Of a stretch of DNA of 38,529 nt, positions 1 through 38,529 are shown one piece after another. Origin of the DNA: Exiguobacterium sp. s124 (GTDB taxonomy: Bacteria > Bacillota > Bacilli > Exiguobacteriales > Exiguobacteriaceae); NCBI RefSeq assembly GCF_018617485.1, contig NZ_JACSKH010000007.1, positions 1-38,529 on the forward strand. The letters run 5' to 3'. The notes below the pieces were generated by a model. That model ran no database searches, was not told the DNA's origin, and saw only the letters and a program-made list of their open reading frames with translations. Positions within the stretch are counted from its first letter, which is position 1, and each line of letters opens with the position of its first letter. The translations under genes and the position numbers were made by a program.

Positions 1-89
1 TGGCCAAACAACAGGACCCGGAGACCGTCAAGATCGAGAAAGGCTACAATCCCGACGTCATCGCCAAAATCCAACCGCAGGGCGGTATT
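1..89. repeat. Terminal direct repeat (copy 1), circular junction
   Basis: These 89 bases are identical to positions 38441-38529. One open reading frame runs without interruption from 38416 through the end into position 1. The two copies are therefore the overlap of a circular assembly, not a biological duplication, and the unique circle is 38,440 bp. Confidence 0.95.
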
Positions 90-3034: not shown

Positions 3035-3064
3035 GTCATGGATGTATGGAAAGGAGGAGAAAGA

Positions 3065-6074: not shown

Positions 6075-6083
6075 GGGGGGACG

Positions 6084-6533
6084 ATGGAAGAGTTGAGACA
6101 GATCCGCCTCCGGTTGAAGCCGGAGACGGTCGCGTATTTGGAAGAGTTCGCCGACGACAAACGTTTCGGCCATCTCGGTCAGGTCATCGACCATATCGCA
6201 GAAGAGCATAGACAACTGGCCGACGAGAAGTGGGACATGCAGTTCCTCACCCACTCGATCAGCACGCAGGTCTCACGTCATATCGAGAAGTTGGTGAACG
6301 AGCAAATATCGACAGAACTCGAGCGTATCCGGCTCGCCGCAAACCGATCCGACCGCCACGGGCAGATCCTGACAGAGCTCCTGCAGGCGCTCATGCAGAC
6401 CGAAGGCATCGAAGATATCATGACGACGGACCAGTTCAAACCGACGTTCCTCGCGACGGCGGAACGTGTCGTCCAGGAACGCATCGAGCACCAAAAACAG
6501 AAGAAGGACACACTAACTTTTGAGAGAGGATGA
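6084..6533 (+). CDS. RHH-like accessory protein downstream of the relaxase
   Basis: This 149-residue protein begins with a strand and helix (RQIRLRLKPETVAYLEEFAD) that reads as a ribbon-helix-helix or MobC-like DNA-binding start. Long amphipathic helices follow, with HIEKLVNEQISTELERIRL in the middle. A GGGGG ribosome binding site lies just before the ATG. Its ATGA overlap with the next gene (6530-6533) marks an operon. A second relaxosome accessory or regulatory protein is likely, but no precise family was recognised. Confidence 0.65.
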   Translation: MEELRQIRLRLKPETVAYLEEFADDKRFGHLGQVIDHIAEEHRQLADEKWDMQFLTHSISTQVSRHIEKLVNEQISTELERIRLAANRSDRHGQILTELLQALMQTEGIEDIMTTDQFKPTFLATAERVVQERIEHQKQKKDTLTFERG

Positions 6534-6826
6534 ACCTTATGCGACCACTTGACCGTCCCTTTACGATGGGACAACTGTTGACACTTCAACAGAAAACTGT
6601 CTCGGTCCTTATTTATGGAAAACGGTACGACATCCCGGTGTCTGTTTCCGAGCACCAACTTTTGACCGCCATCGCGCAAGACGAGATTGTCTTGCTTCCC
6701 GTCAATTTCGAGCGGACACGGCTGTTACTCGACATCCCGGAAACGTCGCCACACCTCGAGCGTGAACTGAAAGATTTTGCGGATAGTGATGAATCTGTCA
6801 AAGACTTGTTGAAGGAAGGAGTCTGA
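6530..6826 (+). CDS. Small protein of the mobilisation operon, unknown
   Basis: This 98-residue protein is not recognised. It starts at ATG 6530, overlapping the previous stop codon by four bases. The middle (TVSVLIYGKRYDIPVSVSEHQLL) looks like a short beta-rich domain, and the C-terminus is acidic (DFADSDESVKDLLKEG). It ends four bases before the ArdC-like gene, so it is transcribed with that gene. Confidence 0.6.
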   Translation: MNLMRPLDRPFTMGQLLTLQQKTVSVLIYGKRYDIPVSVSEHQLLTAIAQDEIVLLPVNFERTRLLLDIPETSPHLERELKDFADSDESVKDLLKEGV

Positions 6827-6830
6827 CACG

Positions 6831-17839: not shown

Positions 17840-18418
17840 TTACTCACTTGTTCTGTTAGATCTTCTAAGAGCACTTGGAATTAATAAATCTAATTCATTG
17901 TCAGAAAAAGTTTGTTCTTCATTCGTTTTTAGTGCTTTTTGAGCTTGTTTAAAACTTTTAGCATCAGTACTTGGCGATTGTTCGTACACCTTTCCTGTCC
18001 TTTCTTGTAAGTCATCTCTTCTATTACGTATTTCCTCACTATCGAGGTCATCAAAATCCGTTAGTAGAGAAATGTACTCTTCTCTTATTTTCCAAAGTGC
18101 CTCTGCAGCGCTACGGTGACTTTGAGCAGTTTCTACGAGATCAAAATTCTTAGTGTAAGAATTTAGAACCAAGAGTGCCAAAGACAATAAAGCGCCAATG
18201 AGCGTCGCAATAGGCTTACCTGTGATAAAAATCGCTCCAAAACTGCTAGTCGTTAAAGCGGATAAGACAATTTGAGCTACTTTAATGTACTCATTTTTTG
18301 TAAGAAGTCGATTTACGATTTTATTATGACAAGTTTGGGTGTATAGAATTCGTCCATACGCCTCTCTAATTTGTGATTCCAATGCATAACCGGTGCTAGA
18401 AGGGGAATTTCGATCCAT
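17840..18418 (-). CDS. SLATT-type two-transmembrane effector of a CBASS system
   Basis: The protein has 192 residues. An N-terminal amphipathic helix (YALESQIREAYGRILYTQTC) leads to two adjacent membrane helices (about 45-66, AQIVLSALTTSSFGAIFITG; about 70-87, LIGALLSLALLVLNSY). A helical domain containing QSHRSAAEALWKIREEYISL follows. This is the SLATT layout, the membrane effectors paired with SMODS nucleotidyltransferases. In CBASS, a cyclic nucleotide made on infection triggers the effector to break the membrane. The gene overlaps the end of the CD-NTase gene by 23 bases, so the pair is co-expressed. How this effector senses the nucleotide is not visible. Confidence 0.82.
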   Translation of the reverse strand: MDRNSPSSTGYALESQIREAYGRILYTQTCHNKIVNRLLTKNEYIKVAQIVLSALTTSSFGAIFITGKPIATLIGALLSLALLVLNSYTKNFDLVETAQSHRSAAEALWKIREEYISLLTDFDDLDSEEIRNRRDDLQERTGKVYEQSPSTDAKSFKQAQKALKTNEEQTFSDNELDLLIPSALRRSNRTSE

Positions 18419-19277
18419 AAATTTCTCTCCATTTCAATCTGCATAAGTTAGGTTTTTTATCTTGATCGTACGTTATTGCTTCAAGCGATTTATTGTAAGC
18501 TTGTTTTGCTTTATACTGGAAACTATCCTTCTTGATTACACTACGTCGGCTACCAGGAGCCAGCCATGACGTCTGATCAGGATCAAGATCTTTTAGAAAT
18601 TCGAAAAAGTCTCTACTCATATAATCATAATATAAATAAGATCTATCATCGTACTCAGCTGTATTTTTTAAAAAATTATAAGCTAGTGTATCTAATAAAA
18701 TCCCGCTTATCGAGACATTACATTTCTCTTTCCATGCTCTTGCCATTCTACAAAGTCGTTTAAGATTTTTATTCTTTTGACGATTCATTTCGTTTATAGC
18801 AAAGAGTTCAGCTTTAGGATTTGTTATTCTCCATGAGCCGCCATTGTTCGAGTCTGGATAAGTATAAGATCCGTCCTTATTTAAAAAAACGGGTACAATT
18901 TCAAAATTTATTTTATCTGTGAAGTTGATTCCGATAACTTGACCATCTCCTTTAACATGGGAAGTTGAATATGTTTTACATAACTCTTCTTTGACATGTT
19001 GAATAAGAGCTGATTGTCCATTAGTACTATAATCATTAAATCTCTTATATGTTTTATAAGGCAATTGAACAATCATATCAATATCACTTGTCCAAATTTC
19101 TGTTCCTCTGCCATAAGATCCCACATAAAGGCCATTTGCTGTTTCTGAATCGCTTCCCCAGTAAGATTGATTAAGGCGTTTCACGATTTTTTTATATCTA
19201 TAACTAATGTTATTCACTGTAGTATCTTTCATTTTAAGATTTTCACAGAAACCTTCAAAATCTTGACTAATAGACAT
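18396..19277 (-). CDS. CD-NTase (SMODS) cyclic-oligonucleotide synthase of CBASS
   Basis: The 293-residue protein has the nucleotidyltransferase signature GSYGRGT (residues 53-59) with the metal-binding pair DID at 65-67. The third acidic position, in KINFEIVPVF, is Glu rather than the commoner Asp. The C-terminal helical half (KRLCRMARAWKEKCNVSISG and on) is the usual OAS/SMODS lid. On phage sensing such enzymes make cyclic di- or trinucleotides; the product here cannot be read from sequence. No E1/E2 or HORMA/Trip13 regulator is present, so this is a minimal (type I-like) CBASS. GGGAG lies ten bases before the ATG. Confidence 0.9.
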   Translation of the reverse strand: MSISQDFEGFCENLKMKDTTVNNISYRYKKIVKRLNQSYWGSDSETANGLYVGSYGRGTEIWTSDIDMIVQLPYKTYKRFNDYSTNGQSALIQHVKEELCKTYSTSHVKGDGQVIGINFTDKINFEIVPVFLNKDGSYTYPDSNNGGSWRITNPKAELFAINEMNRQKNKNLKRLCRMARAWKEKCNVSISGILLDTLAYNFLKNTAEYDDRSYLYYDYMSRDFFEFLKDLDPDQTSWLAPGSRRSVIKKDSFQYKAKQAYNKSLEAITYDQDKKPNLCRLKWREIYGSKFPF

Positions 19278-20207: not shown

Positions 20208-22643
20208 TCATATAGTATGATACTTAGGAACAATTTCTCCTAACATTCTTGCAACAAAGTTATAAAAACTTAGTTGTTGTGCAGGCTCTCTATAACCTTC
20301 GTCGGTACCAGGATCTTCTAATAACAACGAAGTTGAAGAATAAAGGCCACTTTCTAGAAGACGATAACTAAGAATTTCAAAGCGCTTTTTGTAATTTATT
20401 GGATTATCCTCAGTTGCAATAAAAGCTTCATCTAGGCTAAACAAAGGACTGGAAATTTGACTTCCTCCATCGTTACTTTCATGATATCCCATCAAAAATA
20501 AATACCCTACAAATGGAGGTTCAAAAAAATCTACATTGACAGCACTTAATCCTAGTTTGGTGTTGGTCTTTTGGAAGTCATAACCGCTTCCAACAGCTTC
20601 TTCTGCACGGTTATTTGAGTTATTACCAACACTTCCTCTTAAAGATTTCAGTTCAATCAACCCAACTAAAACATTCCCGTTCTCTGTTTCTTTTCTTACT
20701 AGTACGTCCCAACGCTTCGCGGCTCTAAAGTATCCCGGTACAATAGCCTGCGCTCCAGTAAAAATATCAGAACGATTAATACCATTTTCAACTAGCAGAT
20801 CTATTAATACATGTTCAAACGCTTCCATTGTTGCTCCATGCTGAGTTCCTGCTTCTCGAACATCTGCATAGTGTTGGAAACATTCACTTACTCTTGATTT
20901 AAGATCTTCTGCACTAGGGATTCTGATCTCCAACGTTTTCACCTCATTAGTTTTTTGTCCTACGTAGTTTAAAAGTAGGTTTTTTTCTTTATCAGTCAGG
21001 CAAAATATTTTTGCGATAATCGAGTTGAAAACCTGAGGTTGATTTAGCTCAATAGCTTTATCAAGCTGTCCAATAATGAAATCCTCTACTTCTAAAGGAA
21101 CGCAGATCTGTAAAATGTTTTGCTTCTGAAAACGGAAATAATCCCCACGCATTGAAGTTGAATAAGCCTTCACAAAAGCCAATGCAACAAAACTATTTAA
21201 AATATGTTTGATTAATGAAGGATTAAAACCGTCTACTAATAAGTAGTATAAACTATGCTCAGGATAATAATAGCCTTTTTCTTCAAAAAATCTAGTTGAA
21301 TTACCTATATCTTTCCATAATATCTTTGTTTTGTTAACTTCATTGAGTCTAACTCGTTCTTTAGTCCAAAACCATTTATGAGGATTATTTTTTACAAAAG
21401 CTCGCTCAGATAATCTTTGTTTAAATTGTGAAAGATAATTCTGTAGCTTAGGATAACTGTCTAAATCAATAGGATCGCCATTACTTTGAAAAGTTTGAAT
21501 AGTATAAGTCCCATTCCATTCAATACCTTCAGGAGTTAAATGTTTTTTTGTAATCACGGGAACTAAAAGCTCTTTTTCTAACTGATAGTCATTCACTATT
21601 CCTTCATCAATAACGAATATATCTGTGGCCCCAGTAGCAATACCTATTTTACAATCAATGGTCTCAACATTATTAATCGTTGGGAATCTCATTTTTATAC
21701 CATCTAAAATTTCTTTGACTTCAAAATCAATAACCCACGGGTCTTCATTTTCAAACCATTCATCAATCATTCTAGTTTCAATTGACTGCGTTGGTTTATC
21801 AAACAAAATAAAGTTTTTAACTTCACTTATTTCATCTTCCCCTAAATAATTAGACTTAACAAAATAGGTAGAAGCATTTGAAACCTCGTTTGAAAATCCA
21901 AAAATACAAGGGTATGCTGAAACATTCTCTTCAAAAGGACTTGAATTATGAATATCTAAAAAGTACTTAACCTTATAAGAATCTGTAATAAACTTCCTTA
22001 ACTTACGTCCGTAATTATTTTTAATAAAGCGATCAGTACAGATAAAAGAACATATTCCTTTTGGTTTCAACATAAGCAAAGAATGCTCAATAAACGGTAC
22101 ATAGATATCTGCTCTATCATAGTAAGTAATATACAACTCTCTATAAAGCTTTTTAATGGAATCATCCATGTTTTCATTTCTAATGTAGGGTGGGTTCCCC
22201 ACAACGTAATCAAAAGACAACTCGTAGTCTCGATTCCACAACAAAAAATCAGAGTTAACCAGCCAAGATTCACTTAACTCAATTGATTGATGAATATCCA
22301 TGCCTTTTTCCACCAAATAATTTTGAACTTCACGCGTTAGTCTTAAATAAGTACCTGAATCTAATTCAACTGCGACAATAGCAGTTTTTGCTGATATAAA
22401 AACAGATTTCTTCAACTTCCCACTAGTAGTAAAACACCCATTTTTAACAAAACTATCAAATAAACGATCTACAATTGAAAACAAAAATACACCATCACCT
22501 GCAGCTGGCTCCAGAATAGACTGTGTAAATAATTTTTTTTCAGGAAAGTAACCAAACAAATCAAGCATTAACTCGACCACTTCAGGTTTAGTAAAATATT
22601 GGCCTAAAGATTTTGAACTACCTCCAGACGAAACTAAATCCAT
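20208..22643 (-). CDS. Single-chain restriction-modification enzyme: N6-adenine methyltransferase fused to an XhoI/PaeR7I-family nuclease
   Basis: The protein has 811 residues. The N-terminal half is a gamma-type DNA methyltransferase: SAM motif LEPAAGDG (44-51) and catalytic NPPY (150-153). The centre (about 330-560) looks like a target-recognition domain of Eco57I-type enzymes. The last 220 residues match the PaeR7I/XhoI family: AKRWDVLV, then LIELKSLRG, NNSNNRAEEAVG, FVGYLFLMG and YKKRFEILSYRLLESGLY. Asp in RWD and the ELK triplet form the PD-(D/E)XK site. PaeR7I and XhoI cut CTCGAG with a separate methylase; here both activities seem joined in one chain. The ATG lies two bases behind the rep stop codon. 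Confidence 0.85.
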   Translation of the reverse strand: MDLVSSGGSSKSLGQYFTKPEVVELMLDLFGYFPEKKLFTQSILEPAAGDGVFLFSIVDRLFDSFVKNGCFTTSGKLKKSVFISAKTAIVAVELDSGTYLRLTREVQNYLVEKGMDIHQSIELSESWLVNSDFLLWNRDYELSFDYVVGNPPYIRNENMDDSIKKLYRELYITYYDRADIYVPFIEHSLLMLKPKGICSFICTDRFIKNNYGRKLRKFITDSYKVKYFLDIHNSSPFEENVSAYPCIFGFSNEVSNASTYFVKSNYLGEDEISEVKNFILFDKPTQSIETRMIDEWFENEDPWVIDFEVKEILDGIKMRFPTINNVETIDCKIGIATGATDIFVIDEGIVNDYQLEKELLVPVITKKHLTPEGIEWNGTYTIQTFQSNGDPIDLDSYPKLQNYLSQFKQRLSERAFVKNNPHKWFWTKERVRLNEVNKTKILWKDIGNSTRFFEEKGYYYPEHSLYYLLVDGFNPSLIKHILNSFVALAFVKAYSTSMRGDYFRFQKQNILQICVPLEVEDFIIGQLDKAIELNQPQVFNSIIAKIFCLTDKEKNLLLNYVGQKTNEVKTLEIRIPSAEDLKSRVSECFQHYADVREAGTQHGATMEAFEHVLIDLLVENGINRSDIFTGAQAIVPGYFRAAKRWDVLVRKETENGNVLVGLIELKSLRGSVGNNSNNRAEEAVGSGYDFQKTNTKLGLSAVNVDFFEPPFVGYLFLMGYHESNDGGSQISSPLFSLDEAFIATEDNPINYKKRFEILSYRLLESGLYSSTSLLLEDPGTDEGYREPAQQLSFYNFVARMLGEIVPKYHTI

Positions 22644-22645
22644 AG

Positions 22646-23998
22646 CTAAGAACCCCTTCTAAAAATATCAAAATAAATAAGTGGGGATATTTCACATACT
22701 GTAGGTACAGTAAAAGACCCACCCACCACCTTATCTATAAATGTATTGGAGTTGGGCCCATTTTTTTTAAAGCGTAAATTGCCCAACATGACTAAATTAT
22801 CCTTACTAACCAACTGAATGGTCGTGACTGCTCCTCTTCCTTTTCCACTAACTGATTTACATACAATTCCCTGATCAACTAATTCTTCAATTAATCGTTT
22901 AAATGATGTATATGATAACCGTTTAGTTGAATCGACTGATGACGTAACCATTTTTGCAAGTTCGCGTTGAGAACCACGTATGCACCCTTTATTCTGACGC
23001 AAAAGTATTAAAATGTCTTCTATCCATTCGGTTAAATGACTATATTTCCGTTCTTCACGCAATTTTGCAGTCTCCCAGACTTGATACTTGAACTCGATTC
23101 CAGACAACATCTCAATCCAATATGATGAAGGGCCGAGCGGAGAACCTGGCTTGAAGGCACTTTTCACTTTCCTTTTAATCTCAATTTGACGAAGTGAGGG
23201 GCTATTCTTTTCATTCCAGTAATAAAGTGACGATAAAGCTTGATCTTCTTCATATCCCGCAGCCTTGTATGCAAGAGCAAGGGTGTAACATGTATTATCA
23301 CGTTGGCCCTCTTCCACTCCTTCTAATAGCTTTAGGATTGCTGGGTGAGATAATAAATCCGTCGAGCCTAAAGCTACTTTACCTTTCTTCGACTGATTCC
23401 CTTGTTGCTCGGTCAACCAGTCGCAAAGGTCGTCAAAAGAGACACGTTCTCCCGAACGAAAAACTGTGTTCTCTTCTGTCGGTAATCGGAACCAACGTTC
23501 AGCGCCTATCGCTTGAAGATCCGCGTTCATCTCCTCAGCTATCATTCGTTGGACGCGCTTATAGTGATCCACGACTTTTGGAAAGGCGCGTCTTGGTTCT
23601 TTCAAGTACCAATACACATGGAATCCGCCTGAAGGCGTCTGGACAACGAGTGATGGTGTCGGAAGGCCAGCACTTGTCACCCGGTCCATGACGTCCGGGA
23701 AAATCATTCCTGCATTCTGTGACGTCTTGACATCGATATCAATAACCATGGCGTTTAACCAACGCAAAGAGCCCGCATGACGTTGGTCGTTGCGGTAAAA
23801 AGTGTTCGGTGTGAAATATGTATACTTTTCTTTTGCCCCAAAGAGTGAGCGGTATGTACGGATGGCACGTGGTTGTGTGAACTCATGGCAGACAAAGATC
23901 CACCCTAGTTCTTTACTGTATCCGGTTCTCTCGACCTGAGAGGCCCGTTTCGGAGCTTCCGTTAATTGGTCTCGATACAGATTTCTCAATACCTCCAT
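22646..23998 (-). CDS. Plasmid replication protein with archaeo-eukaryotic primase domain
   Basis: The 450-residue protein has the primase-polymerase motifs: MVIDIDV (Asp87 and Asp89), SGGFHVYW (His127) and ADLQAIGAERWFRLP (third acidic site plus Arg). A PriCT-type helical region follows (GQRDNTCYTLALAYKAAGY). The C-terminal 150 residues contain a winged-helix-like segment (SQRELAKMVTSSVDSTKRLS) that probably binds the origin. No helicase domain is present, so host helicase must be recruited. GAGGAGG lies seven bases before the ATG. It is transcribed with the restriction-modification gene. It is the only replication initiator candidate on the circle. Confidence 0.85.
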   Translation of the reverse strand: MEVLRNLYRDQLTEAPKRASQVERTGYSKELGWIFVCHEFTQPRAIRTYRSLFGAKEKYTYFTPNTFYRNDQRHAGSLRWLNAMVIDIDVKTSQNAGMIFPDVMDRVTSAGLPTPSLVVQTPSGGFHVYWYLKEPRRAFPKVVDHYKRVQRMIAEEMNADLQAIGAERWFRLPTEENTVFRSGERVSFDDLCDWLTEQQGNQSKKGKVALGSTDLLSHPAILKLLEGVEEGQRDNTCYTLALAYKAAGYEEDQALSSLYYWNEKNSPSLRQIEIKRKVKSAFKPGSPLGPSSYWIEMLSGIEFKYQVWETAKLREERKYSHLTEWIEDILILLRQNKGCIRGSQRELAKMVTSSVDSTKRLSYTSFKRLIEELVDQGIVCKSVSGKGRGAVTTIQLVSKDNLVMLGNLRFKKNGPNSNTFIDKVVGGSFTVPTVCEISPLIYFDIFRRGS

Positions 23999-24520: not shown

Positions 24521-24590
24521 AATAAACAAGCTATATGCTTTGTTAAAAACGTTGATTTAAAGCCATATTTCAGATGATTCTATTTTCGAT

Positions 24591-24700
24591 GTATACATGT
24601 ATACATGTAGATTCGTATACATGTATACATGTATACATGTAGATTCGTATACATGTATATTCGTATACATGTAGATTTGTATACATGCATACATGTATAC
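24591..24700. repeat. Centromere-like repeat array 2
   Basis: About seven further copies of the same unit follow, several merged into longer GTATACATGTATACATGTA runs. The array ends with GTATACATGCATACATGTATAC-like sequence. The unit contains the half-site of the palindrome at the parA promoter. Iterated short sites near a ParA operon with a small partner are typical of Gram-positive partition systems such as that of the omega protein, which binds 7-base repeats. Confidence 0.85.
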
Positions 24701-29724: not shown

Positions 29725-30059
29725 TTGCTCACCCCACGATCATAGTACTCTCATCATTCTTATTCTTTATGTATCCTTCTATTCCTCTACCCTACCATAA
29801 TCTCTTGAAATCAAAATAATTGTCATTATTTTCTATAATCAAAGCGTTATTTTTTACAGTTGTGCTACAAAACCAATAATATTGAGTTTCTGTTGCCTAT
29901 AAACCCTCATATAGAGCGGATTCGACAAGAATCGTCAATTGTAAAATTTCTGACATATCAGAAAACTGATGATTTTTATTCCTAACCCTGTTATATTGGA
30001 ACCAACAAAAGGAAACATCTGTTTGGTCGCCGCTCTGATTTACAGAAAGGGGAAGACTT
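29725..30059. promoter_or_regulatory. Divergent control region before the transfer operon
   Basis: A palindrome TTTCTGA-CATA-TCAGAAA (29947-29964) lies just upstream of a rightward promoter candidate: TGATTT (29970-29975), 16 bases, TATATT (29992-29997). It probably binds the XRE protein encoded at 30060 and so controls the transfer genes. The leftward promoter of the small XRE gene must lie in 29725-29850, but no clear boxes were seen. Confidence 0.5.
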
Positions 30060-30548
30060 ATGTATCGATTCGGGGAGTGGTTGAAGGAGAACCGCCGGCT
30101 CTCGGGCTGGTCACAGGTCGAACTATCCGAGAAAACATTTGGAGAGATTTCACAGCCCGCCATCAGCCAGTATGAACAGAACCGTTCGGTGCCGTCGATA
30201 GCGGACATCGATCACCTGGCCCGAGCGTTCGGGCACACGCTCGCAACGGTGCCTTGGGAGGCCATCGACTTTGGATACGGGGCAAAACGTTCCGTCACCA
30301 AGCTCGAGCGACGTCGGTTCGACCTGAAGGAGCTACCGCAGGCCGACTCGGTCCGCACGTTCGATGGGAAGACGTATGAACTGCACGGCTTCATCGGGAT
30401 CGAGAAGGCGAGCGGCGAGGCGGTCCAACTGACGCAGCTCTACTATCGAATCCGTACGGTCGTCTGCGACGCCCACGTGCTCGCCAAGCGCAAAAACCCG
30501 GATGACGAACTCATCCACGTCAAAAAGCAGAAGAGAGTCCGCCAGTAG
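30060..30548 (+). CDS. XRE-family regulator heading the transfer region
   Basis: The 162-residue protein starts with a helix-turn-helix domain (FGEWLKENRRLSGWSQVELS, then EISQPAISQYEQNRSVPSIA). A basic C-terminal half follows that I do not recognise; it contains TFDGKTYELHGFIGIEKASG. GAAAGGGGA lies behind the promoter candidate and before the ATG. Composition switches here from AT-rich to the GC-rich style of the transfer genes. It is well placed to repress or activate transfer. Confidence 0.82.
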   Translation: MYRFGEWLKENRRLSGWSQVELSEKTFGEISQPAISQYEQNRSVPSIADIDHLARAFGHTLATVPWEAIDFGYGAKRSVTKLERRRFDLKELPQADSVRTFDGKTYELHGFIGIEKASGEAVQLTQLYYRIRTVVCDAHVLAKRKNPDDELIHVKKQKRVRQ

Positions 30549-30559
30549 CCGACATCGAC

Positions 30560-30813
30560 GCAGCAGCACATCCTTAAGGATGGTCTACTCCAATCACATA
30601 CCGGCGTGTCCCTCACCAGTGACCGGGTGGGCGGGATCTACGCACAGATGGTTCGGCGAGAGTCGCCTAAAACTCGCCATAAGGTCACCGAATCGTTCCG
30701 GGTCATCGAGAAACCCTGTACAGCTCCTCATCTCAGCGAGGAGCGGAGTTCGTGGGGGAACGGCTAGAAACCCACCGCACCGAATCCGACTGTCCTTAAT
30801 GATGTGCTGCTGC
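30560..30813 (+). ncRNA. Candidate structured RNA between regulator and transfer genes
   Basis: GCAGCAGCACATCCTTAAGGA (30560-30580) pairs with 30793-30813 over 21 bases with one mismatch, closing a segment of about 250 nt. Inside are GCGT/ACGC with CACC/GGTG (30604-30642), GGTTCGG/CCGAATC enclosing GGCGA-GAG-TCGCC (30650-30694), GCTCCTC-N8-GAGGAGC (30723-30744) and GTGGG/CCCAC (30752-30775). CACCGAATC occurs twice. Loops are purine-rich. No frame across it is supported by a ribosome binding site until GTG 30847. No known family was recognised. It could act as an independent RNA or as the leader of the transfer mRNA. Confidence 0.65.
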
Positions 30814-30846
30814 ACATCACGAGATCAAGGGAAGGAAGTGTGTACT

Positions 30847-31029
30847 GTGGCATCAAAAGAACAGAAACAGAACCGCAGCTTCGCCGAGAAACTCTTACGC
30901 ATCCGTGGGAAGGACTACGAGGAGTGGCTCGACGAACAGCATCAACAAGTCATCCAGGACAACCAGGAACTCATTTTGGAGGCGCTCGAGGCGAAGCTCA
31001 GCTTCAAGTCGCCGGCGCACCGGGACTAA
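30847..31029 (+). CDS. Small charged protein at the start of the transfer operon
   Basis: This 60-residue protein (ASKEQKQNRSFAEKLLRIRG at the start) is all helical and highly charged, with no membrane segment. GTG 30847 was chosen because AAGGAAG lies eight bases upstream; the frame itself stays open to 30502 but would cross the structured RNA. It precedes the pilin gene by 12 bases. Family unknown. Confidence 0.6.
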   Translation: MASKEQKQNRSFAEKLLRIRGKDYEEWLDEQHQQVIQDNQELILEALEAKLSFKSPAHRD

Positions 31030-31041
31030 GGAGGGAACGAC

Positions 31042-31266
31042 ATGGGACTCAATGAGACAGGGCTCAGCTTGCTTCAGTTCTTCCAGGGGCTCGCCGTCAT
31101 CGCCGCTGCCATCGCTTTCGCGATTGGGGGCTTCTACTTCATCTTCGGCGGAGATCGCGGTCGCTCGAAGGCCGTCGGTTGGCTCGTCGGGGGAGCCGTC
31201 GGACTGATCATCGTCATGGGCGCGTTCACGCTCGCCGAGATGGTCGACCAGAACATCAAATTCTAA
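31042..31266 (+). CDS. VirB2/TrbC-like pilin subunit
   Basis: The 74-residue protein has two hydrophobic helices (about 13-36, FFQGLAVIAAAIAFAIGGFY; about 46-66, AVGWLVGGAVGLIIVMGAFT) joined by a short charged loop (GGDRGRSKA). This is the TrbC/VirB2 layout. No signal peptide for cleavage is evident, as in many Gram-positive members. GGAGGG precedes the ATG. A terminator directly behind the gene suggests a high pilin to downstream transcript ratio. Confidence 0.82.
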   Translation: MGLNETGLSLLQFFQGLAVIAAAIAFAIGGFYFIFGGDRGRSKAVGWLVGGAVGLIIVMGAFTLAEMVDQNIKF

Positions 31267-31279
31267 TGCACACCCACGT

Positions 31280-31305
31280 AGCGTTCCAATCGGAGGGCTT
31301 TTTTT
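31280..31305 (+). terminator. Partial intrinsic terminator behind the pilin gene
   Basis: AGCGTTCC-AATC-GGAGGGCT with one mismatch and one wobble is followed by seven T. It lies within the transfer operon between two same-strand genes, so read-through must occur. Confidence 0.65.
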
Positions 31306-31332
31306 GTTGCTTGAAACGAGAGGAGGAACGAG

Positions 31333-32433
31333 ATGCTGTTTGTACGATTCACCGACGTTCCGGACACACGGATCCAGAACTATGAACGGCTCACCTTCGC
31401 CGAGGCAGTCATCGCGACCCATGAGCTGCACCAGGCACGCAGCGAGGAAGGGACGAGCTGCTCCGGTGATTTCCGGCTCTTCGACCAGAAGGATGAACTG
31501 CTCTATCGAGGAACTTTCACGTTCGGAACTGAGGGAACGTATCCGAACCTATATCATCAAGTGCAAGACCGGGTACAACGGATCCGGACGAAGAAGGAGG
31601 ACAACGCGAAGAAAATGTGGCTGCTCGACGAGATCGAGTCCGAGACACCAGTCAATTATAAGCGCCTGTCCGCCAATTCGAACCCGGTCGTGTCGTCGAC
31701 GTATCAGTCACACCTGACCCGACTACAGCGCCGCCTCATCTACGGGGCGGCCACGGCCGGGATTCTATTCACCTCACTCTTTACTGCCGCGCAATGGCTT
31801 ATCGATAAAGAGGCACACGCCGAACAGGGAACCGATGGCGAACAGACGTGGCTGAATGCTTACGAGCAGGCGCTCCAAGGTGAGGAATCCTCACTAATCA
31901 ATTTACTGGAACGAAAAGACCGGTCCGAGGAAGAGGATGCCCTATTGATCGACCTCTATCTAGCGGAAGGAAAAGATCAGAAAGCGCTCGAGCTCACGGA
32001 TGATCCCATCCTGATTGAAACGAAACTGGCCGGGCTCGAGTTATCCGATAAGGAAAAATTGGAACGGCTCCAGGACTTCCAAGCGTCACATCCGACCGAT
32101 GAGGGCGCGTTCGATATCGCCACACTTGAACGGGATCATGAGACCGTGGCCAAGACGGATGACGTGGAGTGGACCGCTCCCCGCGTCTCCTCGAAAGTGA
32201 CCGCCTATCTCTACCTCGGGGACATCGAGTCCGCGAATGAGTGGGCGTCCAAAACAAACGACCCTGCCGTACAAGTAAAGATCGATAAATACCAAGACAT
32301 TACGGCCACTATCGACGAACTGAACGAAAAATTGAAGAAGACCTCTAGCAAGGACACTTCGGCCCGTGAGAAGATTCAAGCCTTTATCGCTGCTGAAGAA
32401 ATTGACCGAGAAACAATTCTTTATTCAGATTAA
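31333..32433 (+). CDS. Single-pass membrane protein of the transfer operon, EssB-like layout
   Basis: The protein has 366 residues. A soluble N-terminal domain (about 1-130, with RFTDVPDTRIQNYERLTFAE) is followed by one transmembrane helix (about 134-154, LIYGAATAGILFTSLFTAAQ). A helical extracytoplasmic domain (about 160-366) reads like tetratricopeptide-type repeats (LIDLYLAEGKDQKALELTDD). This layout recalls EssB/YukC of type VII secretion, but no specific motif proves homology. GAGGAGGAACG precedes the ATG. Probably a structural part of the transfer machine. Confidence 0.65.
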   Translation: MLFVRFTDVPDTRIQNYERLTFAEAVIATHELHQARSEEGTSCSGDFRLFDQKDELLYRGTFTFGTEGTYPNLYHQVQDRVQRIRTKKEDNAKKMWLLDEIESETPVNYKRLSANSNPVVSSTYQSHLTRLQRRLIYGAATAGILFTSLFTAAQWLIDKEAHAEQGTDGEQTWLNAYEQALQGEESSLINLLERKDRSEEEDALLIDLYLAEGKDQKALELTDDPILIETKLAGLELSDKEKLERLQDFQASHPTDEGAFDIATLERDHETVAKTDDVEWTAPRVSSKVTAYLYLGDIESANEWASKTNDPAVQVKIDKYQDITATIDELNEKLKKTSSKDTSAREKIQAFIAAEEIDRETILYSD

Positions 32434-32447
32434 GGTAGGTGAAATAA

Positions 32448-34811
32448 TTGAGAACTGAATCTCTATCACCACGATTCCCGATACGTCTGATTTTCCCTGC
32501 CCTGTTCTGCCTGTTGGTGTTTCCGGTCGGGATTTTTTATCTACTGAATGGGGTCTACAACATCATACGACAGATCATGACCCCGATAGTACAAGACGGG
32601 CTGTTGGCCGGGGCGACGATTCCAACGCTCTCACCCGCCTTGTTCTTGAAGGTGAGTCTTCCCTCTTCGACCGTCTTACTCGGACTGATCGCGTTCAGTC
32701 TGTTCAGCGGATTGGTCGTGTTCGGCAAGGTATGGCTGAACTTCCGGGATTTGCGGCAGAATCAGAAAGGGAGCGCCCGCTTCACCTCATTCGATGAATT
32801 GAAGCAACAGTACCGTCGCGTTCCGGACCGGAAGAAGCGCTATGACGGATTAGGCGGTGTCCCCGTCGGACGGGTCAAGAACGAGCTGTTCATCGATGAT
32901 TCGCCCGTCAACAACCTCGTCATCGGCACAACCCGATCCGGGAAGGGTGAGACGTTCGTCTTTTCTACGATCGACCTGTACAGTCGATCCAGTGATCAAG
33001 CGAGCCTGATCATCAACGACCCGAAAGGTGAGCTCTTCGCCGCCTCGAAGGAGACGCTCGAGCAACGCGGCTATCAGGTCGAGGTGTTGAACCTGATGAA
33101 TCCGCTCCAATCGATGTCGTACAACCTGCTGCAACTGACGATTGACGCATTTTTAGAAGAGAACTACTCGCTCGCCCAACAGTATGCGCGCTCGGTCGCG
33201 TTCATGTTGTACCATGACCCGAAGGCACGGGACCCGTTCTGGGCCAACTCGTCGATTGACCTATGTACGGCGCTCATCCTCGGCCTCTGTGAGGAGGCGA
33301 AGGACACGCCGGAGAAGATCAACATGTACAACGTCGCGCTCATGCTCTCAGACTTAGGGTCACGGACGGTGGTCACACGACAAGGGCAGGAGATTTCGGC
33401 ACTCGACGAGTTCTTTCAGCGGTTCCCGGAGAACCATCCGGCCCGGCTCCAGTTCGCGACGCTCCACTTCTCGGGTGGCCAGACACGGGCGAGTATCCTG
33501 GCTAATACGAATGCGAAGCTAGGGATCTTCACGTTGAACGGGACCGGGAAGTTGACGTCGATGAACTCGCTCGACATGCGACGCATCGGATTCAACCGCT
33601 GGATCAGTGGACGGACTGAACCTTTGACACGGCTCACGTTCACGTTCCCCGACGGGACGACCCATGCGCTCACGACGGACGACGATGGCAGCTTCATCGT
33701 GTATCATATGTCGCCCCTTCAAATCGGGGACATCGTCCAGATTTCGACCGACTCAAGCACTGCAACGATCCAGCTGGGAGCGCATGACGAGGAAAGTGGA
33801 CGGTTCCACTACTTCATCGACGGGACGATCCAGATTCGCGAAGTGATGCACCAGATGCGACCCGTGGCGGTGTTCCTGATCGTCCCGGACTATGACCCGA
33901 CCTTCAACGTCATCGCGTCGCTCTACATCAAACAGGTGTACACGGCGCTCGCCCGGGTCGCCTCGCAGACGAAACAAGGTAAATGTGAGCGCCAAGTCGT
34001 CTTCTTACTCGATGAGTTCGGCAACATGCCGCCGATCGAAGGCATGGCCAACATCATAACAGTCTGTCTCGGTCGGAACATGCGCTTCAATCTCGTCATC
34101 CAGGCCTACTCCCAACTCGAGAACCTATACGGAGAGGATTGGAAGACGATTGACGGCAACTGTGGGAACACTCACTATCTGTTGACCGCGGACGAATCGA
34201 CCGCCGAACTAATCTCGAAGAAACTCGGTGAGGCGACCATCGTCACCAAATCGCGTTCCGGACAGACGTTCTCGCTCAAGAAATCGAAGACGGAGAACGT
34301 GGACGGCCGTCGGCTCATGACGGCGACCGAGGTCATGGGACTCAAAGAGGGCGAGATGCTCATCATCCGTGTCATCAAGCGTCAGGACACGAAGAAACGA
34401 CGTATCCAGTCGTATCCGATCTTCCTGAACGGCAGGACGGCGATGAAGTACCGCTACGAGTACTTGGCGGACGATTTTGACACAGATCGCTCCTTGCATG
34501 ACATCGACATCCCCTGCCGTCACGCCGGTCTCGATTTCGAACAGATTCGAATCCGCTTTACGCAGAAAGAAGACGCGACGGAAGCGAATACGCCATCAAA
34601 TCAGGAAGAAAAGTCCTTGACGGTATGTGACGTGCTTCAGGACAGCATCCTCCGCTCGATGTTCGAAGGACATGACATCGGCGGGATGTCCCTCCCCGAG
34701 TTCGAAACGAACCTGAACCTAGGAGTTTACGACGTCACCGACAGCCAGAAGAGCTTTTTGAGCACGATGATCGCGAAACGACTCAAGAAACTGAAGCAAG
34801 GCACACCGTAG
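32448..34811 (+). CDS. virD4: VirD4/TraG-type coupling protein (TrsK-like) with an inserted beta-rich domain
   Basis: The coupling protein links the relaxosome to the secretion channel. The 787-residue protein has two N-terminal membrane helices (about 13-38 and 70-98), Walker A GTTRSGKGET (160-169), IINDPKGELF, and Walker B FLLDEFGNMPP (about 518-528), followed by FNLVIQAYSQLENLYGE. Between the ATPase motifs lies an unusual segment, about 378-468 (LTFTFPDGTTHALTTDDDGS and on), which reads as an Ig-like beta sandwich. The protein is longer than the roughly 550-610 residues I recall for TrsK and TraJ. The start is TTG 32448 behind AAGGTAGGTG. It ends in an acidic, helical tail. Confidence 0.92.
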   Translation: MRTESLSPRFPIRLIFPALFCLLVFPVGIFYLLNGVYNIIRQIMTPIVQDGLLAGATIPTLSPALFLKVSLPSSTVLLGLIAFSLFSGLVVFGKVWLNFRDLRQNQKGSARFTSFDELKQQYRRVPDRKKRYDGLGGVPVGRVKNELFIDDSPVNNLVIGTTRSGKGETFVFSTIDLYSRSSDQASLIINDPKGELFAASKETLEQRGYQVEVLNLMNPLQSMSYNLLQLTIDAFLEENYSLAQQYARSVAFMLYHDPKARDPFWANSSIDLCTALILGLCEEAKDTPEKINMYNVALMLSDLGSRTVVTRQGQEISALDEFFQRFPENHPARLQFATLHFSGGQTRASILANTNAKLGIFTLNGTGKLTSMNSLDMRRIGFNRWISGRTEPLTRLTFTFPDGTTHALTTDDDGSFIVYHMSPLQIGDIVQISTDSSTATIQLGAHDEESGRFHYFIDGTIQIREVMHQMRPVAVFLIVPDYDPTFNVIASLYIKQVYTALARVASQTKQGKCERQVVFLLDEFGNMPPIEGMANIITVCLGRNMRFNLVIQAYSQLENLYGEDWKTIDGNCGNTHYLLTADESTAELISKKLGEATIVTKSRSGQTFSLKKSKTENVDGRRLMTATEVMGLKEGEMLIIRVIKRQDTKKRRIQSYPIFLNGRTAMKYRYEYLADDFDTDRSLHDIDIPCRHAGLDFEQIRIRFTQKEDATEANTPSNQEEKSLTVCDVLQDSILRSMFEGHDIGGMSLPEFETNLNLGVYDVTDSQKSFLSTMIAKRLKKLKQGTP

Positions 34812-34827
34812 AGAGGAGGCCGAACCC

Positions 34828-35070
34828 ATGGCCGAGAGTGCGAGAGAGAAGCGAATCCAGAACGAATTGCGTGTCGTCGCGAGGATCATCGAGACGCAGC
34901 GCGTCCGCCTCGAACGGGGCGACGTGCTCAATATCCAAACGACCGATGGCTTTCTGACCGTCTATCAGGACGACACCTCAGACACCCCAAAAACTGTTAC
35001 ACTAATAGATAAGTTCGACTTCCGCGTCAACCTGAAGATCGCGGATCTACTGAAGGGGAAAATCGTCTGA
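34828..35070 (+). CDS. Small transfer-operon protein, unknown
   Basis: This 80-residue protein has a basic N-terminal helix (AREKRIQNELRVVARIIETQ) and a beta-rich remainder (LNIQTTDGFLTVYQD). GAGAGGAGG precedes the ATG. It follows the coupling protein by 16 bases, and its GC-rich style matches the backbone, unlike the next gene. Function unknown. Confidence 0.65.
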   Translation: MAESAREKRIQNELRVVARIIETQRVRLERGDVLNIQTTDGFLTVYQDDTSDTPKTVTLIDKFDFRVNLKIADLLKGKIV

Positions 35071-35086
35071 CGGAGGGGTAAACGTT

Positions 35087-35494
35087 ATGAGGAAAATCTT
35101 GATTGGTGTCCTACTCGGAAGTTCGTTACTTTTAGCATCGTGTGGTGCCGAAAGTTCGAATTATCTTTCTACGACTTCTGTTGAAGAAATTGCAGATATT
35201 AAAACTGAGCAAGAAAGTGCATACGTTCTTGTAGACAGCGATAGTCAAGGTAATGAAGGGGCTTACGTTGATACTGTGCGAGAAGTCGCCACGAAAAAAA
35301 AGAAAGACGTTCTCTTATTCAATCCGTTTCAGCCTAATGGGGAAGATCTTGAAGAACGTTCTACCCAAGAACATCCTGAACTTAAAGGTGGCAGATTGTA
35401 CGAGATGACTGACGGTGAAATCAGTCGTGAATTAAATGTATCTGCCCTTACAGAAGATGAATTAAAGGAGCAAGTCACTACTTTCATTAAATAG
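35087..35494 (+). CDS. Lipoprotein, candidate entry-exclusion protein
   Basis: The 135-residue protein has a lipoprotein signal peptide with lipobox LLASC (Cys19), so it is anchored on the outer face of the membrane. The mature part (SAYVLVDSDSQGNEGAYVDT, then DVLLFNPFQPN and GGRLYEMTDGEISRELNVSA) looks like a thioredoxin-type alpha/beta fold without active-site cysteines. It lies directly before the VirB6-like gene. In ICEBs1 the exclusion lipoprotein YddJ acts on the VirB6-like ConG, so the same role is inferred here. The gene is clearly more AT-rich than the flanking transfer genes. Confidence 0.75.
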   Translation: MRKILIGVLLGSSLLLASCGAESSNYLSTTSVEEIADIKTEQESAYVLVDSDSQGNEGAYVDTVREVATKKKKDVLLFNPFQPNGEDLEERSTQEHPELKGGRLYEMTDGEISRELNVSALTEDELKEQVTTFIK

Positions 35495-35514
35495 CCTCTG
35501 AATGGAGGGATTCT

Positions 35515-37470
35515 ATGGGTGATAACGAAGTTGTAAATAAGCTACAAGAGTTCACTGATATCCTTAGTCTCAGTACACTGGTACTGGATGCTCTCCGCTC
35601 AATGGGTTGGATTTTAATACGTGGCTTAGCAGTATTGATTGATGGACTTGAAAAAGTGACTGACAGCATACTACTAACTAAAACATTTTTTAATAACTCT
35701 CAAGTGGTTGAATTCGTTTCTACGATTCAACCTTTTTTGTACGTTCTTTTAGCTGCTAGCTTCCTATTCACGGGTTACCTCATCATCTTTCAAAAGAAAT
35801 TTGATCGAGAAGGATTTTTAATCAATCTGTTTATCACGTTGCTCATTCTCGGACTATTATCTCCAACGATGACGCAAGTAAGTGAATTCAGTGATACCGC
35901 GATTGATTTCACAACTCAAAACTCTGGCGAAAACTCTTCAAGTGAATCGATATCAAATCAGATTTTACGAGAAAACATTCATGATTTGATTGAATATGAC
36001 CGAAACGATTTTTCCGGGTTGGAAGGTGAGGCTTTGAACTCTCTGCCTCAAAGTCATTTACGAAATATCGATATCAACGAGGTATTCGATAGTAATGAAT
36101 TTCGCTTGGGAAGTACTGGCGAACAAATCTCTCAGTCTAAACTAACCTGGAATGGTGAAACGATGGGAACCTCGAAACTCGACCAAGGCGGCGTCGAGTG
36201 GAACAACCAGTATTACTACCGCTATCAGCCGAACTGGTTGACCATCTTCGTGACGCTCGGGATCATGGGCTTCACGCTGTTCTCGATCGCTTATAAACTG
36301 GCGCGTCTCTCGTTCGAGCTCGCCTTTAACTATGTCTTGGCAATTCTCATCGCACCCGCCGACCTGCACAGTGGTCAAAAGACGAAGAAGGTCATCCAGA
36401 GCATTTTGAACACGTTCCTCGTGATCATCCTAATATTCGTCTCGATCAAACTGTACACGATTGGGACCGCCTATCTCGCGGAGACGTTGGACGGATTCGC
36501 CTACCTGATTGCCCTCATCGCCTTCTCGGTAGCATTGATTGACGGGCCCAACATGGTCGAGCGGCTGTTCGGGATTGATGCCGGACTCAAGCGGGGCTGG
36601 GGTGTCGCCCTCAGCGCCTATGCCGCTGGGAAAGGTGTAACCTCGGCAGGTTCCCATGCGGTCTCGAAGGTCGCGCGTGCCGCACAGGGCGCACCAAAGA
36701 TGCCCTCGCTCCATGAGGCCGCGACTACGCGGATGGATTCGAATGCCATGCCACAAAGTGATTCACCGCTTAATGTGGCGACCCAAGCTTCAAAGCAGAT
36801 GGACGCCGAAAGACAAACCGATCCAGATGGTGTTGCTCAGACGAATCAAACCGCAAGTCGTACCCAACCTGACCAAGACGAACCGACAAGTCCGAAGGAC
36901 GTTGCGCAACCAAACAACGGTCAAGAATCCGAGCTTGAAGTGCACGGGTCTCAACACGTGAACGAAGCGTCAGGCCGCACGTCTCCCGAATCGATCCATG
37001 CGACGCACTCGGAATCGAATACCGAACGTGGACCCGACCATCAAACTACGTCTTCTGAGACGCAAAGACCCGAGTCGATTCACGACCATTTAAGTTCTGG
37101 TCAATCTCCAATCCCTACTCCGTCGACTATCGAACCGGTCACCGGGTCCATCGATGCCGCATCCGGACCAGATCACCGTCACAATGAATCGGTAGCCCGA
37201 AACGACGCGACGTCACCGACAGCTCATGAGGCAACATATTCAAACGGCTCATCCTCATCTGCGCCTGATTCGAGTGACACGTCATCAGAGAAACGCCAAG
37301 GACGCGCCCGGCGGACCATCCATCAGGACACCGTGCTCGACGTCGAGACCGAGGTCATCGAACAGGTGCGTGAGAAACAGACGCATCGTCATAGCCAGCA
37401 CCAGGAAGAGTCACGACGGATTTATCCGACCTCGCCACCGCGATCTGACAACATGAAGAAAAAGGAGTGA
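35515..37470 (+). CDS. VirB6/TrbL-like polytopic channel protein (CD3337/EF1877-type)
   Basis: The protein has 651 residues. Membrane helices lie at about 65-90, 98-120, 240-262, 265-285, 300-320 and 325-345. IDGPNMVERLFGIDAGLKRG is a signature I associate with the CD3337/EF1877 mobilome membrane family. A large loop (about 125-235) lies between the second and third helices. The last 270 residues are a polar, low-complexity tail rich in Ser, Gln, Asp and Thr. GGAGGG precedes the ATG. The first 200 codons are AT-rich and the rest GC-rich, with a sharp change near 36140, inside the loop. Confidence 0.83.
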   Translation: MGDNEVVNKLQEFTDILSLSTLVLDALRSMGWILIRGLAVLIDGLEKVTDSILLTKTFFNNSQVVEFVSTIQPFLYVLLAASFLFTGYLIIFQKKFDREGFLINLFITLLILGLLSPTMTQVSEFSDTAIDFTTQNSGENSSSESISNQILRENIHDLIEYDRNDFSGLEGEALNSLPQSHLRNIDINEVFDSNEFRLGSTGEQISQSKLTWNGETMGTSKLDQGGVEWNNQYYYRYQPNWLTIFVTLGIMGFTLFSIAYKLARLSFELAFNYVLAILIAPADLHSGQKTKKVIQSILNTFLVIILIFVSIKLYTIGTAYLAETLDGFAYLIALIAFSVALIDGPNMVERLFGIDAGLKRGWGVALSAYAAGKGVTSAGSHAVSKVARAAQGAPKMPSLHEAATTRMDSNAMPQSDSPLNVATQASKQMDAERQTDPDGVAQTNQTASRTQPDQDEPTSPKDVAQPNNGQESELEVHGSQHVNEASGRTSPESIHATHSESNTERGPDHQTTSSETQRPESIHDHLSSGQSPIPTPSTIEPVTGSIDAASGPDHRHNESVARNDATSPTAHEATYSNGSSSSAPDSSDTSSEKRQGRARRTIHQDTVLDVETEVIEQVREKQTHRHSQHQEESRRIYPTSPPRSDNMKKKE

Positions 37471-37476
37471 TGACCC

Positions 37477-37776
37477 ATGCGTAAATACCGAATCCCGAAC
37501 GAGGTCACGACCGAACTGAAAATCAATAAAATGCTCTATCTGCACGACTTCCTGTTCCTCGTCGGGCTCATCGTACTTCGACTCGTGACGCTCCCATTCA
37601 TCCCGTCGGTGCTGCACATCCCGTTCACGGTCTTTCTCGTCGTCTTCGGGCTGTTCATGGTACTGCGCCCAGCGACCAATCCACAAAAGCGGATGGTCCA
37701 CGCGATTTACTACGCGCTCTTCAAACGGAAAGACACCTATATCGCGCTCGATGCGCAGACGAAAGGACGTGACTGA
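37477..37776 (+). CDS. DUF5592/VirB3-like small membrane protein (TrsC position)
   Basis: The 99-residue protein begins RKYRIPNEVTTELKINKMLY, typical of DUF5592 transfer proteins. Two hydrophobic helices follow (about 24-44, FLFLVGLIVLRLVTLPF; about 48-66, LHIPFTVFLVVFGLFMVL) and a basic tail. Such proteins precede the VirB4 genes in pSK41- and pIP501-like systems and are taken as VirB3 counterparts. AAAGGAG precedes the ATG. Its stop codon lies one base before the next start. Confidence 0.78.
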   Translation: MRKYRIPNEVTTELKINKMLYLHDFLFLVGLIVLRLVTLPFIPSVLHIPFTVFLVVFGLFMVLRPATNPQKRMVHAIYYALFKRKDTYIALDAQTKGRD

Positions 37777-37777
37777 G

Positions 37778-38398
37778 ATGGCTTTCATTGAAGATACGCT
37801 ACAGGGACCGAGACGCACAGGCACCTGGCTCGACGAACAGGACGTGGTCGAGAAACGGAAGGTCAAAGACAAGGTCGTCGTCAAACCGACGATCGCCGAA
37901 CTGATGCCGGTCGTCGACATCACCGGGACCGAGGCGTTCGAAATGCGCGACGGGACCTATCTCGACATGGTCCAGCTCACCTCAAAGGACATCTACTCCT
38001 TGAATGAGGAGGAAAAAGACCATGACGTGTTCTCACTTGCCTATCTTCTGCAAGCGTACACGCACCCGCTCAAGGTCGTGCCACTGAACACACCGCTCAG
38101 TCTCGAGCGGCAGAAGATCAGCATCGAACGACAGATTCGACAAAATCAGACACCTGCCTACCTGCCCTTTCTATTGAAGAAAAAGCAGGAGCTTGAATAC
38201 CTCGAGGAGCATCGCACCAATCGCGATTATCTCCTCTTTTTTTATGCCGACGACGAGCGGACACTACGCGAACGGAAGACGCACCTCTATAAACTGCTCC
38301 GTCGCTCGAACCCGATGCGCGAGTTGAGGCTCGACCAGAAAGTTCATGTGCTCTATCAACTGAACAACCCGAACACGAAACCGCAACTCGACGCCTGA
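37778..38398 (+). CDS. VirB4 N-domain-like transfer protein (TrsD/TraD type)
   Basis: This 206-residue protein has no membrane segment. It reads like the N-terminal domain of VirB4: EMRDGTYLDMVQLTSKDIYS, then FSLAYLLQAYTHPLKVVPLN and RDYLLFFYADDERTLRERKT. Together with the 650-residue ATPase just downstream it makes up the length of a full VirB4. TrsD/TrsE and TraD/TraE pairs are split in the same way, so this is not a fresh frameshift; both parts have their own ribosome binding site. ATG 37778 follows AAAGGACG; an upstream in-frame ATG (37751) lies inside the preceding gene. Confidence 0.82.
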   Translation: MAFIEDTLQGPRRTGTWLDEQDVVEKRKVKDKVVVKPTIAELMPVVDITGTEAFEMRDGTYLDMVQLTSKDIYSLNEEEKDHDVFSLAYLLQAYTHPLKVVPLNTPLSLERQKISIERQIRQNQTPAYLPFLLKKKQELEYLEEHRTNRDYLLFFYADDERTLRERKTHLYKLLRRSNPMRELRLDQKVHVLYQLNNPNTKPQLDA

Positions 38399-38415
38399 AG
38401 AAAGGAGTGACGCAC

Positions 38416-38529
38416 ATGTGGCAACGTCTGCGTGAGCGAATGGCCAAACAACAGGACCCGGAGACCGTCAAGATCGAGAAAGGCTACAATCCCGACGTCA
38501 TCGCCAAAATCCAACCGCAGGGCGGTATT
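38416..38529 (+). CDS. virB4: VirB4-family ATPase, 5' part (continues at position 1 of the circle)
   Basis: ATG 38416 follows AAAGGAG at seven bases. The frame codes for WQRLRERMAKQQDPETVKIE and runs past the window end in the same frame as the segment at 1-1928. It is the true start of that 650-residue protein. Positions 38441-38529 repeat 1-89, so this is the same gene and not a second copy. Confidence 0.92.
   Translation, partial: MWQRLRERMAKQQDPETVKIEKGYNPDVIAKIQPQGGI
38441..38529. repeat. Terminal direct repeat (copy 2), circular junction
   Basis: This is the exact copy of positions 1-89 that marks the circular overlap. Confidence 0.95.

Follow-up and report, generated by a model that had tools for sequence, protein, structure and literature searches.

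A structured element of 254 nt on an Exiguobacterium plasmid, at positions 30560-30813 of the + strand, is very probably a conAn2-type RNA belonging to a bipartite processive antitermination system. The assignment follows from the position of the element, the homology of its partner protein and a hairpin common to pLS20-family elements; the earlier note on this DNA, which recognised no known class, was thus wrong at the level of mechanism. Antitermination itself, action in cis and the role of ConAn1 we infer from work on pLS20. The mechanism class is a known one, and the system is a well-supported member of it in which the processivity protein is fused to a DNA-binding domain, the RNA is a combined one and the operon has about half the reported size.

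The window, the whole stretch of 38,529 nt analysed here, begins and ends with the same 89 nt (1-89 and 38441-38529), so that the contig probably represents a circular plasmid of ~38.4 kb (~38,440 bp).

A conserved RNA structure within a long inverted repeat

The outer boundaries of the element are 21-nt inverted-repeat arms (30560-30580 and 30793-30813) that match at 20 of 21 positions; the repeat reaches 26 nt at 88% (30560-30585 and 30788-30813), with 202 nt between the arms. The 21-base repeat with one mismatch and widely separated arms from which the earlier note set out is therefore real. Among window repeats of this stringency (21 nt, at most one mismatch, arms at most 400 nt apart), it alone has arms separated by more than 100 nt, and no repeat of this stringency arose in any of 20 whole-window mononucleotide shuffles. 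The + strand of the element folds 3.9 s.d. below 200 dinucleotide shuffles, none of which is as low; the − strand is nearly as exceptional (z −3.2, 1 of 200 shuffles as low), meaning that folding alone leaves the strand undecided.

We compared 28 distinct elements in an alignment (A4) comprising 24 from the window's family, the window included, two from Planococcus plasmids and two from other genomes of the class. The alignment omits L009 (identical to L007), L011 and L091 (5′ arm partly duplicated and 3′ arm damaged, respectively), L024 and L029 (truncated at contig ends), the short partial matches L030-L032, copies from plasmid records including pEspB, and repeat fetches of the same genomes except L046; L005, L014, L026 and L028 were placed by hand. 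RNAalifold predicted 64 pairs, 36 of them with compensatory changes, and addition of a pseudoknot by hand gave a model of 70 pairs. Across the 28 copies 97.5% of 1953 pair cells are paired, compared with 90.8% after shuffling, and sliding the partners by 1-3 columns lowers pairing to 35-47%. Both sides have changed at 39 of the 70 pairs, against 13.0 in shuffles; the segment is thus structured and covarying among homologues, an outcome in favour of the earlier note. G-U cells (186) far outnumber A-C cells (11), and the conserved molecule is therefore an RNA of the + strand, read in the operon direction.

A 175-aa open reading frame (30502-31029) spans the element, contrary to the earlier view that no supported frame crosses it; a frame through the element is open in just 5 of the 28 distinct copies and is therefore not a conserved gene, so that the segment's noncoding character stands, again in favour of the earlier note, and a coding reading was rejected.

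The model comprises a closing stem, P1, whose arms coincide with the extended inverted repeat (30560-30585 and 30788-30813; helices 1 and 2, 99% paired, double changes at 11 of 23 pairs), and five hairpins, P2-P6, plus the pseudoknot, where at least four hairpins had been noticed before. P2 lies at 30604-30643, and its outer helix (30592-30596/30649-30653) is less certain. P3, at 30648-30679, is a signature hairpin of the form GGUUC - stem - ..CCUAAAA - stem that is common to Priestia and Lysinibacillus elements; P4 (30695-30721) has the form GUUC - stem - ..AGAAA - stem. P5 (30723-30744) shows the strongest covariation, with double changes at seven of seven pairs. P6 (30745-30778) is the signature hairpin common to pLS20-family elements, of the form GAGUUC - stem - ..GCUAGAAA - stem. 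All lie on the + strand. The loops are in part purine-rich, as first described, but what recurs among them is the sequence on the 3′ side, for example CUAAAA or CUAGAAA.

In the pseudoknot, the P2 loop (GUGACC, 30619-30624) pairs with GGUCAC in the stretch after P3 (30683-30688), with 94.6% of cells paired and double changes at three of six pairs. Exiguobacterium copies pair GUGACC with GGUCAC, and three others pair UUGGUC with GACCAA, UGGCAAC with GUUGCCA and GUAGUC with GGCUAC; the pairing is weaker in L063. Within single sequences the pseudoknot was matched by 2 to 242 of 500 shuffles, a weak result, and its support is therefore this recurrence with changed letters.

The G-U and A-C counts also bear on whether the segment acts as DNA, be it a second oriT, a regulator binding site or a miniature inverted-repeat transposon. 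Such a reading would account for the long inverted repeat and has a DNA-binding domain encoded by the neighbouring gene in its favour, but a DNA site would not require G-U pairs to be kept and A-C pairs not, the internal hairpins covary, and the closing arms are very different in sequence at the same place in other lineages. An oriT adjoins the relaxase gene, and the MobL relaxase gene here (4920-6074) lies ~12.5 kb further along the circle from the element; miniature inverted-repeat transposons occur in several copies at varying sites, and the window's own genome holds one copy of the element. We rejected both, and consider a DNA-level element, the second recognition site of the earlier note, highly improbable.

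That note had also entertained a trans-acting RNA. A compact domain of ~254 nt with a closing stem would suit a separate RNA that controls transfer in trans or as an antisense, but a consensus scan found no terminator-like site on either strand of 30549-30840, the structure is conserved for the operon strand, and the element directly follows the ConAn1-like gene in annotated Exiguobacterium and Planococcus loci; we regard such an RNA as very unlikely.

Slightly better placed, though still unlikely, is a cis regulatory leader of another kind, either a riboswitch that senses a ligand or signal or an attenuator, with control over the downstream genes. The fold, its pseudoknot and conserved loops, and its place close to the operon's head fit this description; the sequence has no T-run after the 3′ arm of P1, the element is linked to a ConAn1-like gene, and no Rfam class matches it. 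The Rfam scan that the earlier note proposed gave no match to any family at gathering score in the window, and at E at most 10 over 30000-31400 none fell on the element and one unrelated match lay outside it. The results thus lend no support to signal sensing, to action in trans or to a second DNA site, and favour a conAn2-type RNA.

The preceding gene encodes a probable ConAn1-like fusion protein

The element had been placed exactly where the transfer operon begins; it is indeed near the start, but the first gene of the probable operon, at 30060-30548 (+ strand), precedes it. In relatives the gene before the element is annotated as a helix-turn-helix regulator. Its product here matches the XRE-type family Pfam HTH_3 over residues 8-58 (E 6.7e-8), and beyond this domain, residues 87-154 match, by tblastn, small stand-alone proteins on many Priestia plasmids. 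Residues 82-152 align by BLASTP with ORF28 of pLS20 (28% over 72 aa, E 1e-5), and a profile-profile comparison by hhalign, with seven such domains on one side and four pLS20-type proteins on the other, gave 97.4% with E 1.3e-11 over 71 columns. By sequence comparison, then, the C-terminal domain is homologous to ConAn1 (ORF28) of pLS20, and the whole is a fusion of an XRE helix-turn-helix with a ConAn1-like domain, which we propose to be the processivity factor. In a structure model of the fused protein the helix-turn-helix is confident, and residues 74-101 and 125-162 have pLDDT <50.

ORF28 of pLS20 is described as conAn1, an antitermination factor (PMC11730352). We take the pLS20 protein at L033 2564-3082 as ORF28 by position, because a 595-bp gap separates it from the divergent repressor, in agreement with the ~600 bp described (PMC4207663), and because genes of 390 and 99 codons follow, like genes 29 and 30 (PMC6635565).

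The ConAn1-like domain has weak matches to Pfam pXO2-34 and, in some relatives, to NCBIfam TraE_Enteroc, the latter with weak partial matches in three pLS20/Bacillus proteins; the processivity domain may therefore be wider than annotated. When TraE_Enteroc was tried as a wider family name for ConAn1 in 299 genomes it gave no match, and a control was equally silent, which makes the search uninformative. Viral contigs held no relative of three ConAn1 queries.

Upstream of the fused gene, at 29947-29997 on the + strand, an 18-nt palindrome is accompanied by a −10-like TATATT (at 29992), which together could represent an operator and the main transfer promoter. By eye, the palindrome at 29947 is nearly kept in pEspB and absent from E. 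acetylicum; since it is not kept in the latter, our suggestion that the fused XRE domain may bind it is a guess.

Position, closing stem and hairpins recur across lineages

DNA similar to the element was found in 12 plasmid records, all from Exiguobacterium, and in 22 of 61 genomes, counting that of the window, which belong to 2 of 26 genera only. A profile of the ConAn1-like domain reached further, to 28 of 398 genomes of the class and 7 of 145 genera. A ConAn1-like gene followed by a gap before the next genes was seen in the plasmids that we examined from Planococcus, Lysinibacillus, Priestia, Bacillus, Terribacillus, Virgibacillus and Listeria grayi, and in these relatives the gap is noncoding.

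For 20 such gaps, two of them from Exiguobacterium and several of the Priestia and Bacillus ones closely related, we compared the best long-range inverted repeat with 20 shuffles; it exceeded all of them in 16, and in 15 of these 16 the closing repeat begins at most 20 nt from the ConAn1 stop. A closing stem did not exceed shuffles in the remaining four gaps: Lysinibacillus (~105 nt), B. velezensis Mr12 (gap end set arbitrarily) and two from B. pumilus.

We wondered where in pLS20 a counterpart of the RNA would lie. According to the available text, conAn2 causes antitermination and ConAn1 confers processivity, and upstream of the operon's third gene is a weak promoter that drives two genes, including one for surface exclusion (PMC8955417); surface exclusion is assigned to gene 29, and a promoter was studied in the 358 bp before that gene (PMC6635565). 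Counting conAn2 as the second unit of the operon would thus locate it between ORF28 and gene 29. Structure has also been predicted for the long 5′ untranslated region before gene 28, with Pc 461 bp upstream (PMC4207663).

Two hairpin models were searched against 18 loci (150,647 bases). The first, R1, is a covariance model of P6 from 20 sequences of Exiguobacterium, Planococcus and two other Bacilli, with no member of the pLS20 family. Its five best matches were the gaps after the ConAn1 gene of all five pLS20-family loci (E 1.5e-5, 3.6e-5, 6.7e-4, 0.024 and 0.055; next 3.3), the match in pLS20 itself being marginal (E 0.055) and one hairpin alone being common by sequence. Within the 50,000 bases of pLS20 that were scanned, the best match falls at 3301-3337, after ORF28 and not in the 5′ untranslated region before gene 28. 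The second, R2, models P3 from eight sequences, with L063 excluded for a one-base shift; its seven best matches in the same loci fell in gaps from Priestia (five loci) and Lysinibacillus (two), with E from 4.2e-5 to 0.047 and the next match at 1.4. With R1 finding five loci and R2 seven, six of the 18 were matched by neither. These E-values are rough, from a short calibration, and the searches were not blind, the likeness of the hairpins having been noticed by eye beforehand; the placing of the best matches was not built in. Across 200 whole genomes R2 matched 13: nine strongly, all of the window's family, and four weakly (E 0.018-0.026). Together, the R1 and R2 results indicate that, at the level of sequence models, the Exiguobacterium/Planococcus RNA carries both hairpin types, the pLS20-like P6 and the Priestia-like P3.

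A descriptor of the hairpin module was found three times in 23 of the 28 elements, twice in four (the window, whose own P4 it missed, among them) and once in one. At least one module was present in 15 of 16 other gaps, with two or three in six of the 16 and one in the ~105-nt Lysinibacillus gap. Shuffled sequences averaged 0.00-0.41 modules each, a contrast that is inflated and suggestive only because the descriptor was written after the sequences had been seen; for several gaps with a single match, 4-22 of 100 shuffles also reach one module. A joint reading, which we hold as possible but tentative, is that conAn2-type RNAs are repeats of GUU, a short stem, a loop ending in (C)U..AAA and the returning stem (P3, P4 and P6 here), a unit that ConAn1 or RNA polymerase would recognise; the Exiguobacterium/Planococcus RNA would then bridge two sequence types, and the ConAn1-XRE fusion would couple promoter recognition to loading of the antiterminator.

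The downstream operon and its candidate terminators

The + strand stretch of the operon (30060-38440 plus 1-8267) amounts to ~16.6 kb on a plasmid of ~38.4 kb, about half the length of the known conAn operons, which are described as >30 kb (PMC8955417). Downstream of the element comes a small gene of 60 aa (30847-31029, + strand), with matches in 11 Exiguobacterium plasmid records; by eye, a similar small open reading frame follows the Lysinibacillus gap. Next is a TrbC/VirB2-like pilin gene (31042-31266, + strand; Pfam TrbC E 1.1e-5, 26.0 bits against a cut-off of 27.9).

We scanned for terminators as a hairpin followed by at least five T, counting those of −10 kcal/mol or lower as strong. 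Within the window operon (16,159 bases) six candidates lie on the sense and two on the antisense strand (strong 3:1), and the mean of five shuffles is 2.4. The corresponding sense:antisense counts (strong in brackets) are 4:6 (3:1) in pEspB, 3:2 (2:2) in E. acetylicum, 2:2 (1:0) in P. maritimus, 2:1 (2:1) in Lysinibacillus and 3:2 (3:1) in P. megaterium; pLS20, used as a control, has 21:13 (17:2). A looser scan of the window gave seven sense and nine antisense candidates, and a simple consensus scan showed no clear sense excess. The excess of candidate terminators inside the window operon is modest.

Individual candidates recur. Between the pilin-like gene and the next gene lies a candidate intrinsic terminator (31280-31305, + strand) that is weak and has one mismatch; of the six loci scanned in addition to pLS20, five have a terminator site between the pilin-position gene and the next gene of ~1.1 kb, E. 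acetylicum being the exception, and a hairpin with a T-run can be drawn by eye at this junction in all seven sequences compared. Two intragenic candidates on the + strand, at 35706-35738 (35733 in the scan) and 38204-38243 (38237), belong to the three strong sense sites and are also present in pEspB and E. acetylicum.

Comparison with known systems and a proposed mechanism

By analogy with pLS20, transcription from a promoter upstream of 30060 would pass first through the gene for the fused XRE-ConAn1 protein and then through the 254-nt element. The element's RNA would fold while being made, the long P1 stem closing with the signature hairpins P3, P4 and P6 inside, and may act in cis on its own transcribing polymerase; the ConAn1 domain would join as processivity factor, and the altered polymerase would read through the terminators inside the transfer operon. 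Stray transcription that had bypassed the element would stop at these internal terminators.

The system resembles conAn of pLS20 in its homologous partner-protein domain, in its order (a ConAn1-like gene, a noncoding gap with a long closing stem and then the transfer operon), in VirD4 CD1115-family and pLS20_p028-family genes within that operon, and in the candidate terminators there. It has the P6 hairpin in common with the pLS20 family, where the comparison is with the gap after ORF28, the presumed place of conAn2. It differs from pLS20 in that ConAn1 is fused to an XRE helix-turn-helix and has no C-terminal extension such as that of ORF28, and in that the RNA also has a P3 hairpin of the Priestia/Lysinibacillus type.

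Few RNA-based processive antiterminators are described: put, EAR, conAn and canT, as far as the available texts go. Like canT of Tn916, the RNA here would lie in the main-promoter transcript of a conjugative element, and canT lets polymerase pass several terminators in cis; canT differs as a 452-nt region for which the available text mentions no ConAn1 partner, and is set apart here by this description (PMC11658703). EAR of the Bacillus subtilis eps operon and put of phage HK022 are likewise RNA-based, but are described there as working without protein factors, with host factors not excluded for EAR (PMC8955417, PMC11658703), and Rfam scans of the window gave no match. In the literature that we searched, which did not include the primary conAn papers, we found no paper that combines Exiguobacterium, conjugative elements and antitermination.

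The authors of the canT study considered its activity hard to explain from predicted structures, according to the available text (PMC11658703). The class of the present system is already known; its covarying structure and the hairpins that recur across lineages make the mechanism testable and can be targeted directly by mutagenesis and structural studies. The fusion suggests that the onset of transfer is linked to read-through of the operon, and the models may recognise conAn-type systems where annotation offers a helix-turn-helix regulator and an empty gap only.

Other features of the window and of related loci

Elsewhere in the window, a gene for a CBASS-type oligonucleotide cyclase (NCBIfam E 6.5e-29, below the curated cut-off) lies beside one for a SLATT-domain protein at 17840-19277, which is probably a small anti-phage defence cassette. 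At 20208-23998 a large protein weakly similar to BREX and Alw26-type adenine methyltransferases is encoded, adjoining a PriCT_1-domain protein. Other strong inverted repeats, these with close spacing, occur near 20159, at 24588-24700 and near 27027 and 27233, and are possibly terminators or replication or partition sites.

Among the element copies, L026 (G017:C1) and L028 (G025:C1) lie on chromosome-sized contigs (2.1 and 3.0 Mb), which suggests that they sit in integrated conjugative elements; among the full-length copies listed, L028 has the lowest similarity (73%). The P1 5′ arm of L011 (G014:C2) is partly duplicated in tandem near 1485-1515. The record of L091 (CP077644.1), titled Stutzerimonas stutzeri plasmid plas3, holds an Exiguobacterium-like copy in which the damaged arm is the 3′ arm of P1; a mixed culture or mislabelling is possible. 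Some relatives carry two copies of the element, and in G015, G017, G025 and G035 each adjoins its own ConAn1-like gene. At G382:C2:23103-23336 a second ConAn1-like match with two internal stops lies on the same contig as an intact one, and is probably a decayed copy.

In two Lysinibacillus loci (L035 6463-6570 and L096 2744-2850) the gap of ~105 nt after the fused gene holds a single P3-type hairpin, perhaps a minimal version of the element. A Listeria grayi plasmid (L078 2547-3178) has two P6-type hairpins within one closing stem, as if the inner domain had been duplicated.
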